Source: a virus. From it: a DNA stretch of 25,567 nucleotides. The number at the start of each line of letters is the position of its first letter. Position 1 is the stretch's first letter. Where the stretch lies: the IMG/VR virus record IMGVR_UViG_3300037089_000888, positions 1 to 25,567 of that record; one strand, written 5' to 3'. Positions 1,205 to 22,446 of the stretch are shown in pieces. The notes beneath the pieces are model-generated. The model had not been told where the DNA came from, did not search any database, and saw only the letters and a list, made by a program, of their open reading frames with translations. Position numbers and translations under genes: made by a program.

Positions 1205-3712
1205 TTAATAATTTTTTATTGTATTATCCAATAAATTTGTTGTTATATTTACCACAATTATTTTATCAAGAACACCGTCAATGTCGTCTGGGTCTATCCA
1301 TTGAAATTTAATTTCTGCAAATAATATTTCGTTCGGATGTAATTTTGTTATTGTGTCTGGAACTATGAAATCATATGTAGTATTGTTAACATATATTAAA
1401 CTTGTCCATCCTGATATTTGTCCTGTCCATCCTGTTATTCCACTTATAGTTTTTTCAAATTTAACTAATACATTTGTTGGATTTGTTCTACTCATAACAA
1501 GGACTTTAATATCAATCATCTTTGTCAAATCTTTAAATGTGCCATCAGCATTTTTATATCGAATAGATTTTCTTATGTCAGAACCAGCACTTTCTTGCGG
1601 AACATATGTTGGAATTTTATATCGGGTAGTAACCTTACCACCACCACCATAAATAATTCTTCCACCTTTACTTACTGGTAAATTTAAATTCGGATTTGAT
1701 TTTGCTTCAATTAATGCATTATGTAGAACTTCTGGAGAAGTTAATGCGTTATTATACACTCTTAATTTTTGAATTCCACCAATAAATGATGAATCAAAAT
1801 TTTCTTGAATTAATAAATTATCTTTTCTTTCGTCTTGTACTAATATATCAGATGCGGTATAAGTAAAGTCGTTAATAAATAACGGTTTGTTCTGGTTAGG
1901 TGCATTGTCACTTTCAATTAACAAACCAATATGTACCTCTTGTTTTCCAGTATTATCTTTTGTACTGAAAATAGTTTTCATTGGTATCCAAGTATTGTCA
2001 CCAGTTACTATTGTTTCTTGTGTTGATATTGCATCAATACCGCTACCAGAAAATATTGTAAACTGACAAAAAACAGGTTTTCCTGTCACCCCATAATATA
2101 ATCTGCCGTTTTTTGAATATTCGAATTCTTGTGTATCAAGATTTGGATTTGAACTAATTAATTGCATTGCAGCATACTGTGCTGCTGTCAGTGGATAATA
2201 ATATTGTGCTTCATTTAAAATATTAACGTCAACACTACCATAAATCAATAGAGATATTTTATTAGTACCAGAATTTTTAAAAAAGTCATTATTAAAAATC
2301 GACAAATTAATTTCATAATCCCTGTTTGATAATACGGTAATAGGGTGATTAAATTTTACAAAATATGTATTTGCTGAAGTACCAGTAGTTCCAGTTACTC
2401 CAGTGTATTCAATGCGCATTACTGTAAGTGGATGTTCGATAGTTGCATTACATTTATCTACAACTTTAAATGTTGTACTATCTGCACTAAATGATAAACC
2501 ACTTAAACGAGTATTTCCAGTTGGTGCTGTATAACATTCGGTTGAAATCGGGTCTGCTTCAACAAAGAAATTATTATTTATATAATTTGTATCCTGACCT
2601 TTATAAAGGATATATGTTTGGTAATCATAATGCCATGAATTCTTTAATCCAAATGAACCACCTCCCCAGCTAATTGAATATGGTACACCTATTTGTTTTT
2701 CTTTATCGTTACTAAGTGCACTAAAATAATATTCAGGAAATTCATGAATTATCCAAATAGCACGACCATTAACATAAAAAATTAATTTACCCATTCTTTG
2801 TGGTTCGCATTCTAATAATGAAGGCAATTCAACAAAATAATTTGGTAAAAACACAACATCAATCATTGTAAAGCCAGTAGCGGTAACGGTAGCCACTGAT
2901 GTATTAGTTACTATAAGTCCGTTATTATCAACATATTTATATGCGATTTTTCTATCTTGAGTTAATTCAAATGCAATTACATTGTTTTTAGTGCTACCAG
3001 TTGCTGGTAATTCAACATATTTTGTTTCATATCTATCTTCAAATGATCTAAAAGCCTTTTTCAATACTTTTTTTGGTTCATAACCGTTTAAATAATTACC
3101 AAAACTTGTAGTAACACCTGTAGTTATGTTAGTAACACCAGTTATTGTTTCACCAGAGAAATACGGATTATATTTATCTTCTGCACGTAAACCCATCATA
3201 TAAAATATACCGTGAGAATCTGGATTTAAGTATACTAATGTTTCAATTGTTATACCATAATTATATCGTGGTGGCAATAATTCATAATTATAACCATCCA
3301 ATTTGAAAAATCCCTGCAAATATCCACCATTAAGACTGAAATAATTTCCTGTTGTGGCTGATGCTCCTGTTACTCCGCTTATGGTATATCCTGAATATGC
3401 TGTTGTTGCAGTATACCCGCTTGTATTACCAGTTGATGGATTAATAACATTATTATATCCAATCCTGTACATTGAAAATAATGTGTCTGATGGAGTAAGT
3501 GTTATACCTGTCCACATTAAATTGGTTCTGCCATTATCAAATTCGGTTAAACCAAAATCAATAAGATTAATATTGTCAGATACAGCACCCGCCCATTTGG
3601 TTAAACTAAATGCAGTAAAACCAGTGTTTAAATCCCATGATTTTAACTGAGTTAAATCAATTTGTATTGCTAAATTATCTGTAATTATACCATTTAGGCA
3701 CTCTAAATTCAT
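1205..3712 (-). CDS. Large tail-fibre/adhesin-like protein with ConA/LamG-like domain
   Basis: The frame is open from an ATG at 3760, but the promoter-like CTATTTATA lies at 3735-3727, inside that extension. I therefore take the ATG at 3712 (MNLECLNGII), 14 bp below the motif, giving 835 residues. The protein is rich in G, T, N, Y and S with many short beta strands and GVTG/TGATG-type turns, as in phage adhesins. Around residues 640-670 the sequence GGIQKLRVYNNALTSPEVLH matches the closing strand of concanavalin/laminin-G-like domains; an earlier FYVNGRAIWI segment also fits a lectin-like sandwich. A likely role is host-surface glycan binding at the tail. The gene is followed one base later by the next appendage gene. 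The family call is moderate; the host receptor is unknown. Confidence 0.68.
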   Translation of the reverse strand: MNLECLNGIITDNLAIQIDLTQLKSWDLNTGFTAFSLTKWAGAVSDNINLIDFGLTEFDNGRTNLMWTGITLTPSDTLFSMYRIGYNNVINPSTGNTSGYTATTAYSGYTISGVTGASATTGNYFSLNGGYLQGFFKLDGYNYELLPPRYNYGITIETLVYLNPDSHGIFYMMGLRAEDKYNPYFSGETITGVTNITTGVTTSFGNYLNGYEPKKVLKKAFRSFEDRYETKYVELPATGSTKNNVIAFELTQDRKIAYKYVDNNGLIVTNTSVATVTATGFTMIDVVFLPNYFVELPSLLECEPQRMGKLIFYVNGRAIWIIHEFPEYYFSALSNDKEKQIGVPYSISWGGGSFGLKNSWHYDYQTYILYKGQDTNYINNNFFVEADPISTECYTAPTGNTRLSGLSFSADSTTFKVVDKCNATIEHPLTVMRIEYTGVTGTTGTSANTYFVKFNHPITVLSNRDYEINLSIFNNDFFKNSGTNKISLLIYGSVDVNILNEAQYYYPLTAAQYAAMQLISSNPNLDTQEFEYSKNGRLYYGVTGKPVFCQFTIFSGSGIDAISTQETIVTGDNTWIPMKTIFSTKDNTGKQEVHIGLLIESDNAPNQNKPLFINDFTYTASDILVQDERKDNLLIQENFDSSFIGGIQKLRVYNNALTSPEVLHNALIEAKSNPNLNLPVSKGGRIIYGGGGKVTTRYKIPTYVPQESAGSDIRKSIRYKNADGTFKDLTKMIDIKVLVMSRTNPTNVLVKFEKTISGITGWTGQISGWTSLIYVNNTTYDFIVPDTITKLHPNEILFAEIKFQWIDPDDIDGVLDKIIVVNITTNLLDNTIKNY

Positions 3713-3772: not shown

Positions 3773-3860
3773 AACTACTAATAATAGTTTCTTAGGCTGA
3801 ACGAGTAATCTCGTTCATATCTCCATAAGCGTGAATTTCGGCAGTTCCTGCCGTATTATT
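3773..3860 (-). ncRNA. Candidate omega (reRNA) guide-RNA scaffold at tnpB 3' end
   Basis: TnpB proteins use an RNA formed from the 3' part of their own gene and the adjacent element end. Over the tnpB 3' end I see three compact hairpins: CGGCAG-TTC-CTGCCG at 3839-3853, TGAACGAG-taat-CTCGTTCA at 3798-3817, and an imperfect AACTA...TAGTT palindrome at 3773-3789, just past the tnpB stop, where an IS200/IS605 right-end hairpin would lie. The first two overlap the C-terminal codons, as expected. Exact ends and the guide segment cannot be set from sequence alone. Confidence 0.35.
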
Positions 3861-4961
3861 TTTTAAAAAAGCAAAATGTTTGATGTTATTTGCTGCCAAT
3901 AAATCCCTGTCATGAGTAACACTACAACTTTTACATGTCCATGTCCTATCGCTTAGTTTTAATTCTTTATTTATAACACCACAACTACACATTTTACTAC
4001 TTGGCTCAAACTGACCTATTTTTAATACATTACAACCATACCATTCAGCTTTATAATCAAGTATTTCATTAAATTTACCAATAGCAATGTCATTTAATGC
4101 TTGTGCCAACTTATGATTTTTAATCATATTACAAGGTTTTAATGTTTCTAAACATAATGTATCGTAATTAGTTGTTAAATAATGTGTTGTTTTATGTAAG
4201 AAATCCAAACGTTTATTAGCCACTTTTTCATGTAAAATTGCTAAATTTTTAACAGATTTTTTATAATTATTACTTCCGTTTATTTTTTTGCTCATTTTAC
4301 GATGTGCTTTTTTTAAATTATTAAGTGACTTACGTAAGTATTTAGGATTTTTAATTTCAACACTATTAGATAATGTTGCAAATGTTTTAATACCCAAATC
4401 AATACCAATTGCTTGACTTTCACAAATTGGTTTTTTTATTGGATTATTTTCATTTAATTCAACTAAAATTGATATAAAATATTTATCTGTTGATGTTTTG
4501 TTTATTGTTGATGTTTTTATTTTACCTTCGAATTTTCTGTGTAGTATAATTTTAATCGATTTTTTAAATTTAGGAATATCAATAGTATTATTCTCAAAAT
4601 TAACTATTGTACTTTGTGGTATTGAAAAAGTTTGACGGTTATTCTTTTTTGATTTAAATTTAGGAAATCCCTTTTTTTCTTTAAAAAACTTAGTAAATGC
4701 TTTATCTAAATGAACCAATGATTCTTGTAATGATTGAGAATTAACTTCCTTTAACCATTTAGTATCTTCAGATTTCTTTAGTATTGGTAATTCTTTTTTA
4801 ATATCAAACATTGACAATCCTTTACCTGTTTCTTGATATGATTTAATTTTTTTCTCTAAACCATAATTATATATCCAACGAGAACAACCAATATGTCTTA
4901 ATATTAATTCTTGTTGTTCATTATTTGGATATATCCTATATTTAAATGTTTTATATTTCAT
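3792..4961 (-). CDS. tnpB: TnpB (IS200/IS605 OrfB) RNA-guided nuclease, stand-alone
   Basis: A 389-residue protein with the full TnpB layout and usual length. An N-terminal OrfB helix-turn-helix region begins KYRIYPNNEQQ. The RuvC-like core has candidate catalytic residues D188 in IGIDLGIKTFA, E272 in LCLETLK and D353 (or D351) in HDRDLLAANNI. A zinc-ribbon has Cys 325, 327, 343 and 346, with the first pair spaced C-x-C rather than the commoner C-x-x-C. All key residues are present, so it is probably active. Family knowledge: TnpB is an RNA-guided DNA nuclease ancestral to Cas12 that helps IS605-type elements persist. No TnpA (Y1 transposase) is in the window, so this is either a TnpA-less element or a phage-adopted nuclease, possibly acting like a homing endonuclease. 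It has its own promoter-like motif. Confidence 0.93.
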   Translation of the reverse strand: MKYKTFKYRIYPNNEQQELILRHIGCSRWIYNYGLEKKIKSYQETGKGLSMFDIKKELPILKKSEDTKWLKEVNSQSLQESLVHLDKAFTKFFKEKKGFPKFKSKKNNRQTFSIPQSTIVNFENNTIDIPKFKKSIKIILHRKFEGKIKTSTINKTSTDKYFISILVELNENNPIKKPICESQAIGIDLGIKTFATLSNSVEIKNPKYLRKSLNNLKKAHRKMSKKINGSNNYKKSVKNLAILHEKVANKRLDFLHKTTHYLTTNYDTLCLETLKPCNMIKNHKLAQALNDIAIGKFNEILDYKAEWYGCNVLKIGQFEPSSKMCSCGVINKELKLSDRTWTCKSCSVTHDRDLLAANNIKHFAFLKNNTAGTAEIHAYGDMNEITRSA

Positions 4962-9837: not shown

Positions 9838-10320
9838 ATGGAATACGAAGACAGTAAATTAAAGTTAATTTATGTACATAAAATCGGGTACAATGTAAAT
9901 TATGAGGGATTATATGAATTTATTTTTTCTCTTGATGAAACCAATGTTGATATGGAAGGCTGGTGTTGGGATATGTCACCTGCATGCGATCATGCAATGC
10001 CACCAACTGATGAATATATCAATGCAATTTTTAATTTAAAAACAAGTTCATTTGATTTATTTTGCTTACATGAAGCTACTGATAGAGAATACATGCATGG
10101 CTATCATACTATTCATTGTTTAGCATATGAAGTTGAGAAGAAGGATGAAAATAATAATGTTAGCGATTATCATGAAATGTTTGAAACTGAAAATAGTGAT
10201 ATACCATTACTGGTATTTCATTATGGTATGACGTTATCAAAAGTTAAAGACTTACTTAATTCAAGAAAAATTATTCTGAAAAATAATGAATTCGTAGAAA
10301 CATCTTCCATAAAATTCTAA
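9838..10320 (+). CDS. Conserved-looking phage hypothetical protein
   Basis: A 160-residue soluble acidic protein, mixed alpha/beta. A striking segment at residues about 40-60 (EGWCWDMSPACDHAMPPTDE) has two cysteines and aromatic and proline residues. Further on come several histidines (LHEATDREYMHGYHTIHC), so a metal site built from Cys/His is possible. The C-terminal part contains VFHYGMTLSKVKDLLNSRKI, which reads like a turn plus helix. I cannot name the family. It has its own promoter-like motif 13 bp upstream and sits immediately before the structured non-coding stretch upstream of terL, with which it shares orientation. Confidence 0.65.
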   Translation: MEYEDSKLKLIYVHKIGYNVNYEGLYEFIFSLDETNVDMEGWCWDMSPACDHAMPPTDEYINAIFNLKTSSFDLFCLHEATDREYMHGYHTIHCLAYEVEKKDENNNVSDYHEMFETENSDIPLLVFHYGMTLSKVKDLLNSRKIILKNNEFVETSSIKF

Positions 10321-10321
10321 C

Positions 10322-10330
10322 GTATTTATA
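10322..10330 (+). promoter_or_regulatory. Late-promoter-like motif GTATTTATA before a non-coding stretch
   Basis: Perfect GTATTTATA one base after the stop at 10320. No gene begins within the next 100 bp; the next element is the structured stretch at 10335-10413. It may drive that RNA or provide a second start for terL. Confidence 0.5.
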
Positions 10331-10334
10331 ATTG

Positions 10335-10413
10335 CCTATCCTACCATATTCGGAGGAAAAGGTTTCGAAGCGGGATAAGTCAAGATACTTACCCCGCTTT
10401 GCGGTTTTATAGG
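10335..10413 (+). ncRNA. Candidate structured small RNA or terL leader
   Basis: Within the 121-bp gap before terL is a stretch much richer in G+C than the surrounding intergenic DNA. CCTAT (10335-10339) can pair with ATAGG (10409-10413) and close the whole element. Inside, a 13-bp stem with one A-C mismatch pairs AAGCGGGATAAGT (10368-10380) with ACTTACCCCGCTT (10387-10399). A second, mutually exclusive hairpin CCGC-TTT-GCGG (10394-10404) is followed by TTTTAT. A promoter-like motif lies just upstream and another just downstream. This fits a small RNA of about 75 nt with its own promoter and terminator, or an attenuator-type leader. No known RNA family is recognised, and it is not a tRNA. Confidence 0.4.
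10394..10410 (+). terminator. Short terminator-like hairpin CCGC-TTT-GCGG + TTTTAT
   Basis: A four-base-pair G+C stem with a three-base loop followed by TTTTAT. It is short for an efficient terminator. Its left arm overlaps the right arm of the longer upstream stem, so the two structures cannot form together. Confidence 0.4.
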
Positions 10414-10419
10414 GTGAGA

Positions 10420-10428
10420 GTATTTATT
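10420..10428 (+). promoter_or_regulatory. Late-promoter-like motif GTATTTATT before terL
   Basis: GTATTTATT, 13 bp before the terL ATG at 10442, with an A/T-rich leader and no Shine-Dalgarno. Confidence 0.5.
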
Positions 10429-10441
10429 ATAAAAATTTATA

Positions 10442-12544
10442 ATGAGTCTTAAAAATATCGACCCTGATAATATTCCTGAAAAAGATAATGATGAATCATT
10501 ATTTCCTGAACACATACCGTTAATCCCTCTTAATATACAAAGAGAAAAAGAAAAAGAGGAACTTAGAAAAAAAGCCAAAGAACTTAGAAAAAAAATTGGT
10601 AAAATTGAACCAATCATTGTTACTAAGGATGGTACTGCAAAAAAAGCCAGTGAATTACTTAAATCAGAACAAGAATATGAAATAGTTCGTTGCGGTATAA
10701 ATCCAGTTTATTTTATTGAAACATATTTAACAATTTTTGATCAGACAAGAGGTGTTGCAGGTCTTATTGTGCCATTTATATTATTTGATTTTCAGGTGAA
10801 ACTCATTAAAACATATATGGAAAATAGATTTGTTGTTGCTAATAAATATCGTCAGGCAGGTGTTACAACAACAACTTGTGCATATATTGCATGGTATGTA
10901 ATGTTCAATCAAAACAGACAGGTTGCTATTGTTGCAGATAGACTTGAAACTGCTCGTGATGAAATTATGAATGATGTTGTTGATTTTATTGAAACTTGTC
11001 CTAAATGGTTAAGACCAAAAACTGGTAGAGATACGGGTGAAAGAAATTTAAAAGATACTCAAAAATTAAAAGTATATGATAATAATTCAAAATTAGGTGC
11101 TTTCTCGTCTAAAGGTCTTCGTGGTTATACACCAACATTATTATTCTGGGATGAAACTGCATGGACAGAAAAAGGTGATAAATTCTGGACATCAGCAAAA
11201 CCAACATTACAAACTGGTGGTTCTGCAATTATGGTATCAACGCCTTCTGGTCTTGATGCTGTGTTCTATAAAACTTTTAATGGTGCTCGTAGAAATGAAA
11301 ATAATTTTAAAGCAGTTGAATTATGGTGGTATAATGACCCAAGATATAATAAAGATTTGAGTTGGATTAAGAATAAAGGTAAAGAAACCGAAAATAAAAT
11401 ATTTGATCAGAATTGGGATAATACAACAAGAATTAAGATGATGGATGATGGCTGGGAAGCCAGTTCTCCTTGGTTTGAAGATCAGATAAGAGAGGCAGAT
11501 GGGGATATGCGTAAGATTGCGCAGGAATTATTATGTTCTTTCTTAGGTTCTGGTGATAATTTTATTGCTGAAGAATACTTAAAACGTATTGAAGATGAAG
11601 AAATAAAACCACCAATTCGTCAGGAATATATTGATTTAAATACATGGATTTGGGAAGACCCAATTGTGGGAGAAGATTATATTATGACATTAGATGCTTC
11701 TGCAGGACATGGAGAAGATAATTCAACAATGAATATGCTTAAAACTGTTGAAATTATTGAAGAAAAGGTAATTACAAAAAATGGTAGAACTAAAAAAGTT
11801 AAGATTAGACGACATAAAGTAGAACAAGTTGCAGAATATTATGGCAAAGTAACTCCGCAAACATTAGCTGAAATAGCATATCATTATGGAAGAGAATATA
11901 ATAATGCATATTGTGTAGTTGATATCACTGGTGGTTATGGCGTTCAAACAGTTGAAAAATTACTTGATTCAGGATATGAAAATATCCATTATGCCGAAGT
12001 AACGCATAAACCAAGTAGAGACAGATTACAGGGTTACATTAAAAAAGGTCAAAAGACAATGAGTGATGGTGCAGTTATGAACGTGGACTTAATCCCCGGA
12101 TTTTTCATTGGTGGTAATCGTGCTTCAGTGGTACTTGAAATGCAAAGAGCAATTCATTTAAAAGATGTTATTATTCATTCTGTCAGATTATTAAATGAAT
12201 TAAAAACATTTGTCACCGTAGCAGGAAATCGTGTTGCAGATCATAAACGCTCATTTCATGACGATTCAATTATGGGACTATCAATTGGCTTATACGTGTT
12301 GAATTTTGATATGGCACGATATAAACAAAGTAAAGGAATTACCGAAAAATTACTTAATGCAATTATTACTATCAATGACATAAATGAAATTGGAAAGAGA
12401 ATACCTACTGGTCATACTCTTACAATTAGAGATACCAGTGTTAAGAATAGACCCATGATTTCACCTGATAATATATCACCATTAAATCCATATGGAGCAA
12501 ATGCATGGTTATTTGATGGATTGAAAGAGAAAAAGAAAAAATAA
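10442..12544 (+). CDS. terL: Terminase large subunit (T4 gp17-like), DNA packaging motor
   Basis: A 700-residue protein with both terminase domains. ATPase: a deviant Walker A, NKYRQAGVTTTT, where the usual P-loop lysine is V141 and the lysine sits upstream at K135, as in lambda gpA-type motifs; Walker B LLFWDE (D237, E238); coupling motif MVSTPSG near residue 265. RuvC-like nuclease: D418 in LDASAGHGED, D494 in VVDITGGYG and D607/D608 in HDDS. The protein docks on the portal, translocates DNA into the prohead using ATP and cuts the concatemer. An N-terminal charged arm of about 85 residues and a C-terminal tail after the nuclease are extra. Portal follows after 73 bp. No small terminase is recognisable in the window. 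Confidence 0.95.
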   Translation: MSLKNIDPDNIPEKDNDESLFPEHIPLIPLNIQREKEKEELRKKAKELRKKIGKIEPIIVTKDGTAKKASELLKSEQEYEIVRCGINPVYFIETYLTIFDQTRGVAGLIVPFILFDFQVKLIKTYMENRFVVANKYRQAGVTTTTCAYIAWYVMFNQNRQVAIVADRLETARDEIMNDVVDFIETCPKWLRPKTGRDTGERNLKDTQKLKVYDNNSKLGAFSSKGLRGYTPTLLFWDETAWTEKGDKFWTSAKPTLQTGGSAIMVSTPSGLDAVFYKTFNGARRNENNFKAVELWWYNDPRYNKDLSWIKNKGKETENKIFDQNWDNTTRIKMMDDGWEASSPWFEDQIREADGDMRKIAQELLCSFLGSGDNFIAEEYLKRIEDEEIKPPIRQEYIDLNTWIWEDPIVGEDYIMTLDASAGHGEDNSTMNMLKTVEIIEEKVITKNGRTKKVKIRRHKVEQVAEYYGKVTPQTLAEIAYHYGREYNNAYCVVDITGGYGVQTVEKLLDSGYENIHYAEVTHKPSRDRLQGYIKKGQKTMSDGAVMNVDLIPGFFIGGNRASVVLEMQRAIHLKDVIIHSVRLLNELKTFVTVAGNRVADHKRSFHDDSIMGLSIGLYVLNFDMARYKQSKGITEKLLNAIITINDINEIGKRIPTGHTLTIRDTSVKNRPMISPDNISPLNPYGANAWLFDGLKEKKKK

Positions 12545-12617: not shown

Positions 12618-14642
12618 ATGGCTGAAGAAAAAAAAGGTGGAACAATATATCAACAACTTAATTCATTTTTGAATCTCGGTAGTATGGATGTGCAAACTGC
12701 ACAACCAACTGTATCTGCAAGTACACCACCAAAAGAAACAAAAATTATTATTAAGGGTGCATCTCCTGAAGAAATCCACAAAAAAGGTTTGGAGTTAGAG
12801 CAAAAAAGAGAACTTCAAAATAAATTCTTTCGTACAACAGACAGAGGTTTCCAAAAAGCACTTCAATATGAAGCAGCCAGATTACCTGCATATATTGATT
12901 ATGAAGGTATGGAGTATTACCCAATCATTTCAAGTGCTTTGGATTTATTTATGGAAGAATCCACAACAATTGGCATGAACGGCAAAATGTTGAATATTTA
13001 TTCCAATAAAGAACGTATAAAATTTTTACTTGAAGAATTTTTCTATGATATTGTTAATGTTAATGTTAACTTACCGTTCTGGGTAAGAAATTTGGTTAAA
13101 TATGGAGACAATTTTGTGTTATTATATGGTGAGAGAAAAAAAGGTATTACACACGTAAAACAATTGGTGAACTATGAAATTGAAAGATTTGAAAGAATTC
13201 AAAATGGTAAGCCATATGTTAAGTTCAAAGAAAGAATGACTGGTGATGAATTCAATACATTTGAAATTGCTCACTTCAGATTACTTGGTGATGATAAATA
13301 TCTTCCTTATGGTTCATCAGTACTTAATAAAGTACGTAGAGTTTTCAGACAATTAGTTATGGCTGAAGATGCTATGTTAACTTATCGTATTATCAGGGCA
13401 GGTGAAAAGAAAGTATTCAAAATTGACGTTGGTAATATAGATGAAGATGATATTGATGAATATATTTATAAAGTTGCTACCAAGTTTAAAAAAACTGCAC
13501 AGGTACAACCAAATGACGGACAAATCGATTATCGTTTTAATATACTTGGTAATGATGAAGATTATTTCTTACCAGTAAGAAATGCAAATACTCAAACAGG
13601 TATTGATACACTCCCGGGAGCAACTAATCTGGATGCTATTCAGGACATTGAATATCTTCGTGATAATTTATTTGTTGGTCTTGGTATTCCAAAACCTTTC
13701 TTATCATTTCAGGATGCTGCTGGTGCTGGTAAAAACATGGCACAATATGATATAAGATTCTCAAAGAAAATTAATCGTATACAACAGGCAATAATTCAAG
13801 AACTCAATAAGATGGCAATGATACATTTGTATCTATTGGGTTATACTGGTGAAGATTTAAGTGATTTCACCATGACATTAACAAATCCATCAACACAGGC
13901 AGAATTAATGAAAGCTGAATTGATGCGTGAAAAAGCACAAACATATACTGAATTAACTCGTGCAGAAGGTGGTATTGCTGCAATGTCACATACAAATGCT
14001 AAGAGATTAATGTTCAATTGGAGTGACAGAGAAATTGTTAATGATTTGAAACAACAGAAAATGGAAAAGGTTGTTATGCAAGAACTTCAAGATTCTCCTG
14101 TTACTATTAAGAAATCAGGTTTATTTACAGATATTGATGCAAGATTCGGTGAACCCGAAGCTGCAATGATTGGCGGTGCACAAACTGGCGGAACTGAACA
14201 GGATGGTGGAATGCCTCCTGCTGCTGGTGCTGGCGGTGGAATACCTCCTGCTGCTGGTGGAATGCCTCCTGCTGCTGGTGGTGCTGGTGCTGCTCCTGCT
14301 GGCGGTGGTGGTATGCCTCCTGCTGCTGGTGCTGGCGGTGGAATACCTCCTTTAGCTGAAAATCGTAAACGTATGTTAACTGAAGCAGAATATGATATAT
14401 ATCTTGAAAATATGGTGGCAATTACAAATGGAGAGCCATCACGCAAAAAAGAAATTAGGCATAAGGAAATAATTAAAGAAAATAGTGAAATTAACGAAAA
14501 CTTAAATAGAAATGCTCAAACCATGATCGAAGAAATCAGCGTTTTATTAAAAAACACTGAAAGCATTAATAAAGAACAAAAAATTGATGAAGGAGAAGAT
14601 GTTGATTTTGAATCTATTGAGAATATTGAAATAATTGAATAA
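12618..14642 (+). CDS. Portal protein (T4 gp20-like)
   Basis: A 674-residue protein. The core resembles T4 gp20: an N-terminal clip/wing region with RLPAYIDYEGMEYYPIISSA and VNLPFWVRNLVKYGDNFVLL, then a stem/crown part around NLFVGLGIPKPFLSFQDAAG. Twelve copies would form the ring at one head vertex through which TerL pumps DNA and to which the neck attaches. It is longer than T4 gp20 (about 520 residues) because of a C-terminal extension. This extension has a G/P/A repeat (about 530-580), then MLTE(589)-AEYD, a good match to a prohead-protease cut site, then an acidic helical tail of about 85 residues. Cleavage there would remove the tail. It follows terL and has two promoter-like motifs upstream. 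Confidence 0.9.
   Translation: MAEEKKGGTIYQQLNSFLNLGSMDVQTAQPTVSASTPPKETKIIIKGASPEEIHKKGLELEQKRELQNKFFRTTDRGFQKALQYEAARLPAYIDYEGMEYYPIISSALDLFMEESTTIGMNGKMLNIYSNKERIKFLLEEFFYDIVNVNVNLPFWVRNLVKYGDNFVLLYGERKKGITHVKQLVNYEIERFERIQNGKPYVKFKERMTGDEFNTFEIAHFRLLGDDKYLPYGSSVLNKVRRVFRQLVMAEDAMLTYRIIRAGEKKVFKIDVGNIDEDDIDEYIYKVATKFKKTAQVQPNDGQIDYRFNILGNDEDYFLPVRNANTQTGIDTLPGATNLDAIQDIEYLRDNLFVGLGIPKPFLSFQDAAGAGKNMAQYDIRFSKKINRIQQAIIQELNKMAMIHLYLLGYTGEDLSDFTMTLTNPSTQAELMKAELMREKAQTYTELTRAEGGIAAMSHTNAKRLMFNWSDREIVNDLKQQKMEKVVMQELQDSPVTIKKSGLFTDIDARFGEPEAAMIGGAQTGGTEQDGGMPPAAGAGGGIPPAAGGMPPAAGGAGAAPAGGGGMPPAAGAGGGIPPLAENRKRMLTEAEYDIYLENMVAITNGEPSRKKEIRHKEIIKENSEINENLNRNAQTMIEEISVLLKNTESINKEQKIDEGEDVDFESIENIEIIE
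14204..14352 (+). repeat. G/P/A-rich tandem repeat in portal C-terminus
   Basis: Units encoding (G)GMPPAAG or GGIPPAAG are repeated five times. The 39 bases at 14211-14249 recur exactly at 14313-14351. Bases are nearly all from CCTCCTGCTGCTGGTGG-type codons, making it a local G+C peak and a likely site of copy-number change. Confidence 0.9.
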
Positions 14643-21723: not shown

Positions 21724-22446
21724 ATGGGTAACATATATCAATTAAGAGAGAGTAGAATATTACAAAAAGATGAAACTGGATTTGGAATTCTAATAGAGTC
21801 AGATGCAGGTTATGTTAATTCAGATTTAAACCCACAATTTTTAACAGAAGGATTTGTACTTAAACCAAATGAACCTGTTTTAATTAATTGTATTTTACAG
21901 AAGTGGGGCATAAAAAATAAAAATGGACGTATCTACCCTAAAGATGTTTTAGTACCACAGGTTGATTTATATAAAGAATTGGTTAGTACCAACAGTGCTG
22001 TTTCTGAAGCAGATCATCCTGATTCAAGTATTATTTCCTTGCAGAATATCTCTCACATGATTGTAAAAATGTGGTGGGGTACTGGTCAACAAGAAAATGT
22101 TTTATATGGACAATTAAAAATACTTGTAACAAAAGGTTATATAAATTATGGTATTTGTTCAGTTATTGGTGATAAGATTGTTTTTTATCTTGAAAATAAA
22201 ATAAGATTAGGTATTTCTTCTCGTGGTGTTGGTACGCTTAAGGAAATTAGTGGCGAAAATCTTGTACAAAATGATTTTGAATTAATTGGTTTTGACTTAG
22301 TTATAACACCAAGTACTCCGGGTGGATATTTATTTCCTGAAAAATTAGGTGTTAAATTTGGAGAAAATTATGTAATGAAAAATGGTATTTATCTTAAGGA
22401 AGAAGATAATAAACTATTGAAAGGCATTAATAAGTTCTTATTATAA
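21724..22446 (+). CDS. Prohead core protease (T4 gp21-like, family S80)
   Basis: A 240-residue protein with the herpes-assemblin-like protease pattern of T4 gp21: NKNGRIYPKDVL near residue 60, histidine H98 in SEADHPDSS, and the serine segment LGISSRGVG (S165/S166), followed by FELIGFDLVITPSTPGGYLF. The H and S are the expected catalytic pair. It is made inside the prohead, activates on assembly, degrades the scaffold and trims capsid proteins, mostly after L/I-x-E; many neighbouring proteins carry such sites. It is slightly longer than T4 gp21. Order protease-scaffold-capsid is the same as T4 21-22-23. Start chosen at the first ATG after the promoter-like motif. Confidence 0.92.
   Translation: MGNIYQLRESRILQKDETGFGILIESDAGYVNSDLNPQFLTEGFVLKPNEPVLINCILQKWGIKNKNGRIYPKDVLVPQVDLYKELVSTNSAVSEADHPDSSIISLQNISHMIVKMWWGTGQQENVLYGQLKILVTKGYINYGICSVIGDKIVFYLENKIRLGISSRGVGTLKEISGENLVQNDFELIGFDLVITPSTPGGYLFPEKLGVKFGENYVMKNGIYLKEEDNKLLKGINKFLL

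Follow-up and report, generated by a model that had tools for sequence, protein, structure and literature searches.

The window, that is, the whole stretch of 25,567 nucleotides analysed, is an IMG/VR virus record (25.6 kb) whose head module is T4-like. The TerL and portal proteins are 27-39% identical to those of the closest annotated phages, which include Microcystis and Flavobacterium phages. An RNA element sits in the 121-bp gap between terL and an upstream ORF (ORF160) that stays the neighbour of the RNA across most related phages. The features of the locus are as follows.

9838-10320, plus strand: conserved ORF of unknown function (ORF160), 5' neighbour of the RNA; no match in Pfam or PHROG
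10322-10329, plus strand: GTATTTAT, putative phage promoter motif 5' of the RNA; enriched in the window and at fixed spacing to the RNA
10330-10408, plus strand: type A structured RNA of about 75-80 nt; R1 model match, bacterial type A homologues and covariation
10334-10363, plus strand: hairpin 1; P1 paired in 100% and P2 in 99% of alignment cells, five pairs with double changes
10334-10337/10360-10363, plus strand: P1 of hairpin 1
10339-10342/10354-10357 and 10344-10345/10352-10353, plus strand: P2 of hairpin 1, with bulged 10343
10366-10380 with 10387-10401, plus strand: hairpin 2 (P3); 97% of cells paired, double changes in 10 of 14 pairs
10381-10386, plus strand: hexaloop CAAGAU of hairpin 2, which also has a conserved A.C mismatch at 10375/10392
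10400-10408, plus strand: conserved 3' tail UGCGGUUUU, the type A signature, common to phage and most bacterial type A copies
10420-10427, plus strand: second GTATTTAT, 3' of the RNA, presumed terL promoter (motif enrichment)
10442-12544, plus strand: terL, T4-like terminase large subunit (phrog_5989, E 2.1e-32; phrog_2, E 1.8e-31)
12618-14642: portal gene of the head module
21724-22446: head maturation protease gene of the head module

Elsewhere in the window a gene of the TnpB/OrfB transposase family (3792-4961, minus strand; phrog_506) is flanked by structural genes. In relatives of the phage, intein-like sequences split the TerL and portal genes (L059 299-4011; L078 808-5102 and 5174-8083), and in L059 a separate ORF, possibly a homing endonuclease gene, lies within the split at about TerL residue 365. 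The RNA element was also considered as a MITE or a TnpB end and this was rejected, the element being single in the window and a repeat search having found no copy near the TnpB gene.

A first-pass annotation of the sequence had described a compact structured stretch directly upstream of terL, flanked by two promoter-like motifs, and both observations were upheld. The window contains 15 copies of the motif GTATTTAT, where 3.4 were expected, and none of 100 shuffles reached 15; the motif stands before most of the window ORFs and is probably the promoter of this phage group. In 14 of the 18 type A phage loci the distance from the end of TATTTAT to the RNA is constant. Folded alone, the stretch has a minimum free energy of -31.3 kcal/mol (z -2.2), with 6 of 200 shuffles equally stable. 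The long stem noted at first reading is real and contains one A.C mismatch (hairpin 2), while a second conserved hairpin, formed by 10334-10345 with 10352-10363, had been overlooked. The AT-rich closing helix joins the two promoter-motif copies and, by reading, lies outside the conserved structure.

A comparison covered 80 IMG/VR loci encoding TerL relatives. Homologous elements were present before terL in most of the loci for which upstream DNA was in the record, amounting to dozens of phages, and fell into two types. The consensus of type A, to which the window belongs, is GCCY-AUCNUACC..GGARGA..RGGUUUCGA followed by the UUGCGGUUUU tail, whereas that of type B is GUUCAUCNNACCNNNNGG..GAAGGAAAUCGA with a tail that is usually UUGCUAUUUU-like. 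The types share a fold composed of hairpin 1 (P1, P2 and the bulged base) and hairpin 2 (the long P3 with a CNRGAW hexaloop). In the type A alignment 98.0% of cells were paired and both sides had changed in 15 of 24 pairs, a level of covariation reached in none of 500 shuffles; the corresponding values for type B were 100% and 13 of 24 pairs. Across the pairing and covariation measures for both types, the observed values were reached by 0 or 1 of 500 shuffles. Sliding the partner strand by one base halved the pairing in both types, and RNAalifold, given no structure beforehand, returned essentially the same folds. Since type B contained numerous G.U cells and no A.C mismatches, the results indicate that selection acts on the plus-strand RNA. 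Both hairpins were conserved through the loop, and nothing like a variable guide region was visible. Kissing of the two hairpin loops was checked by eye in type B and consistent covariation was not found.

The R1 covariance model scored the window copy at 106 bits (E 2.5e-23), the copy being one of the training sequences; bacterial type A homologues outside the R1 training set scored 56-95 bits. As the first-pass annotation had stated, no known family fits as regards Rfam: neither the window copy nor its bacterial and phage homologues had a relevant match at gathering or relaxed thresholds. A blastn search against annotated phages gave no meaningful match for the element.

The proposal of a switch or attenuator with mutually exclusive hairpins depended on an alternative terminator-like hairpin (CCGC/GCGG, 10394-10404). 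Covariation was absent from this hairpin, its outermost pair was broken in 8 of 17 relatives and a terminator scan found none. The proposal fails because the alternative hairpin lacks conservation, and neither a conserved GC hairpin running straight into a T run nor two conserved exclusive hairpins were found in the element. Another suggestion of the first-pass annotation, a small RNA gene, is supported by the covariation it had called for, the plus-strand G.U bias, the promoter motif belonging to the RNA itself at a fixed distance, and bacterial homologues preceded by a Bacteroidota-type promoter. The element is thus a gene-like structured RNA of about 80 nt and not a switch.

In 21 virus records of up to 349 kb, strong covariance-model matches stood before terL only (two weak matches, E 0.06-0.07, were disregarded). 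Pattern scans of 2.9 million viral contigs retrieved 17 type A and 61 type B stretches, nearly all on the same strand between an ORF160 homologue and terL. Several phages carry the types in tandem, A then B (for example L005, L007, L012, L019 and L058), with the reverse order in L017, and the element is missing before terL in relatives L010, L014, L032 and L043. Copies were also found at other sites. A 326-kb phage (L151) has two at different positions with no such terL nearby, L158 has one before a groEL-like gene, a third phage type (L160, L175, L184) has the RNA about 1.7 kb before a gene resembling a different terminase, and the copy of L182 lies close to the end of a tRNA and to an integrase-like gene. 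In all, orphan copies occupy differing sites in four phage lineages or more; those outside the window lineage include L151/L243, L158 and L160/L175/L184. The window copy is likewise an orphan in that no M04B or DUF3800 gene, the bacterial neighbours of the RNA described below, adjoins it. A search for DUF3800 (PF12686) and M04B (PDLC04358) matched none of 25 phage records, the window record included, so that these records have the RNA and lack the proteins. In the PDLC04358 search the control genomes gave no match; the same model matched M04B in other bacterial-genome searches.

Some phage loci were rearranged. In L018 (1372-2200) an inserted GIY-YIG-like ORF (1527-2048, minus strand) adjoins or interrupts the type B element that precedes terL, and L033 and L034 seemingly retain just the 3' part of the element. 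In L245, from the phage of L149, the hairpin 2 loop of the type B element carries a large insertion, and a type A-like element comes next. L006 (607-690) is a hybrid in which hairpin 1 is of type B and the tail of type A, resembling a recombinant of A and B.

The type B pattern also matched 16 Bacteroidota genome records, all 16 of which were confirmed by the R2 covariance model (E <= 2.2e-15). In 13 of the 16 the RNA is convergent with a gene of 165-171 aa, overlapping the 3' end of the gene by a few bases, and this gene lies 3' of a DUF3800 gene wherever the contig is long enough. The neighbours correspond to PDC-M04A and PDC-M04B by PADLOC models (E to 2e-83 and 4e-71), M04A being the DUF3800 protein (PF12686). 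Inspection of two cases placed the pair inside or next to restriction-modification loci of types III and I. For an unbiased sample, M04B and the RNA were searched separately in 299 Flavobacteriaceae genomes. Six full-length M04Bs (E <= 1.5e-57) and six strong RNA matches (E <= 7.2e-9) were obtained, in the same six genomes, with the RNA at the 3' end of M04B in each. None of the remaining 293 had an RNA match at E < 1e-3; one further genome has a divergent M04B alone, with no RNA match. Weak R2 matches (E 0.003-0.008) in four genomes lacking M04B were treated as chance. A phylum-wide sample added three intact close M04Bs (L225-L227), all with the RNA, and two loci (L228, L231) in which the RNA is kept and M04B matched as a piece only. 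More divergent M04Bs have, by eye, other candidate RNAs at the same place; a scan of IMG/VR for two other M04-type RNAs found nothing. In Bacteroidota the RNA thus occurs almost only beside the candidate defence pair PDC-M04.

Three bacterial copies (L187, L190, L198) are orphans without M04A or M04B, and in L187 and L190 the orphan converges on a KilA-N-like gene that neighbours type III restriction-modification genes. In L225 an Rfam DUF3800-VIII RNA (2255-2319, minus strand) is flanked by a TIR-domain-like gene on one side and the PDC-M04 RNA on the other. An unrelated viral contig (L242, 3882-3960, minus strand) carries an orphan of another RNA type found beside divergent M04Bs (L236-L239). 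The contig matches neither DUF3800 nor M04B and may reflect the same strategy for a further subtype.

Both RNA types are present in bacteria. Type A was found in L212, L213, L214, L226, L227 and L228, the other bacterial copies being type B, and in the M04B tree the type A M04Bs form one group (support 91/84) nested among the type B M04Bs. Within each type, the phage and bacterial alignments have conserved positions in common, and by eye the hairpin 2 sequence of the phage orphan in L158 is identical to that of bacterial L188. In 20 of 24 bacterial copies TAnnTTTG, the Bacteroidota -7 consensus, lies a few bases upstream, at the place where the window copy has the phage promoter motif. The presence of promoter motifs before phage and bacterial copies suggests that both kinds of genome transcribe a separate RNA.

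The link of the bacterial RNA with M04B makes M04B, the DUF3800 protein or both the most likely partner. For DUF3800 an RNase H fold has been predicted (PMC10910872). Pfam assigned M04B to no family above cut-off; a sub-threshold PBECR3 match (E 0.034) was obtained for one member. The predicted structure of M04B is poor (pLDDT 55) and the fold cannot be named from the model, whose best whole-domain structural neighbours were a CdiA toxin, at Z 5.9, and the tRNase colicin D, at Z 5.2-5.3. As a low-confidence hint from this modelling, M04B may be a colicin-D-like ribonuclease of the BECR fold.

Because the phage carries an RNA that bacteria have beside a candidate defence, the phage RNA is probably a stand-alone copy that switches the defence off. 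The best explanation of the locus, to which we assign a probability of about 0.62, is that the window RNA is a phage-encoded mimic or decoy neutralizing a host DUF3800/M04B RNA-protein defence. The structure of the RNA, its homology with the bacterial RNA, the linkage of the latter to M04B and the lack of M04A/B in the phage records are established by the sequence comparisons; binding to the proteins, their inhibition and a gain for the phage are inferred. In bacteria the RNA would probably be the third component of M04, serving as inhibitor or cofactor and bound by M04B, the DUF3800 protein or both. The phage would transcribe its orphan copy from its own promoter and flood the cell, keeping the host M04 proteins bound and inactive to the benefit of the phage, and the tandem A and B copies of some phages would match both RNA subtypes used by bacteria. 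Against this, PDC-M04 is a candidate system only, the host of the window phage can be judged only indirectly from its nearest annotated relatives, among them a Flavobacterium phage at 27-36% identity, several type B-only phage copies have no promoter motif directly upstream, and the constant position of the RNA at the terL junction in the window lineage fits a cis role too.

Such a cis role is the main rival and is considered unlikely. An RNA of bacterial origin would now act as a leader or 3' UTR element governing how the ORF160-terL junction is transcribed, processed or translated, consistent with its position there throughout the window lineage, with the lack of strong matches elsewhere in records of up to 349 kb, and with terminator-like hairpins seen by eye at that place in distant relatives L046, L048 and L050. 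However, one phage promoter motif starts the RNA and another separates it from terL, L010, L032 and L043 have neither the element nor a terminator, and cis regulation has no need of the bacterial type-specific sequence. The rival is weakened further because other phages have copies at other genes, including the groEL-like gene. Recruitment of the host M04 proteins by the phage RNA, for example against competing phages or host RNA, is quite improbable: a bacterial RNA that served as guide or activator could be redirected through a phage copy, and the predicted RNase H fold of DUF3800 is compatible with this, but the hairpins are conserved through the loop and leave no variable guide region. A mere intrinsic terminator of the upstream operon is very improbable; a stem followed by UUUU and the canonical-looking hairpins of L046, L048 and L050 point that way, but the scan detected no terminator, and hairpin 1, the CNRGAW loop and two conserved types shared with bacteria would all be unnecessary. 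A packaging signal (pac/cos) or other DNA-level element, raised in the first-pass annotation and in keeping with the adjoining terL, has almost no probability given selection on RNA pairing, with G.U states confined to one strand and type B free of A.C mismatches, and given that the element is missing before terL in the four relatives named above and lies away from the terL junction in other phages.

For the mimic or decoy reading there are precedents for both parts, DUF3800-associated RNAs and phage RNA mimicry. DUF3800 was earlier tied to putative ncRNAs (PMC10910872). The Rfam DUF3800 RNAs (DUF3800-I, -VIII, -IX and others) resemble the present RNA in being small structured RNAs beside a DUF3800 gene, and an RF03075 match lies near one bacterial copy of the PDC-M04 RNA; however, no DUF3800 model matches this RNA and the phage copy has no DUF3800 gene. 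PDC-M04 was represented in PADLOC by the protein models used, without a visible RNA component, whereas all the intact close systems examined had the RNA in convergent orientation at the 3' end of M04B, and the phage has the RNA only. Phage PhiTE opposes the type III toxin-antitoxin system ToxIN with pseudo-ToxI, a phage copy of the RNA part of the host system that is sometimes in tandem (PMC3475682). The two cases differ in that ToxI is a repeat RNA co-transcribed with toxN, whereas the bacterial M04 RNA consists of one unit of two hairpins and is encoded on the opposite strand; it is convergent at the M04B 3' end and not upstream of and co-transcribed with a ToxN, CptN or TenpN toxin as in type III systems. 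The ToxIN proteins are unrelated to M04A/B by Pfam, and escape from M04 is a predicted parallel. Phage neutralization of toxin-type host defences is likewise described for TifA against ToxIN (PMC10853763) and for a DarTG antitoxin mimic (PMC11481870). The window phage would differ in using RNA. In the open-licence PMC literature, no report joining DUF3800-associated RNAs with phage RNA mimicry and no paper naming PDC-M04 was found.

A wider reading, tentative and somewhat short of an even chance, is that the RNAs form a widespread natural class of decoys repeatedly taken up by unrelated Bacteroidota phages, stacked as A and B against two subtypes of the system and driven by phage promoters, and that PDC-M04 is a three-part system in which the RNA restrains a tRNase-like toxin. 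To our knowledge few cases of RNA counter-defence are known, chiefly the pseudo-ToxI of PhiTE, the expansions of which were reportedly selected in the laboratory; TifA and the DarTG counter-defence appear to act through phage proteins. If the mimic or decoy reading is true, RNA mimicry would be fixed in nature across many phages, directed against a candidate defence. The finding gives PDC-M04 an RNA partner and two subtypes, and suggests a possible function for DUF3800-associated RNAs.
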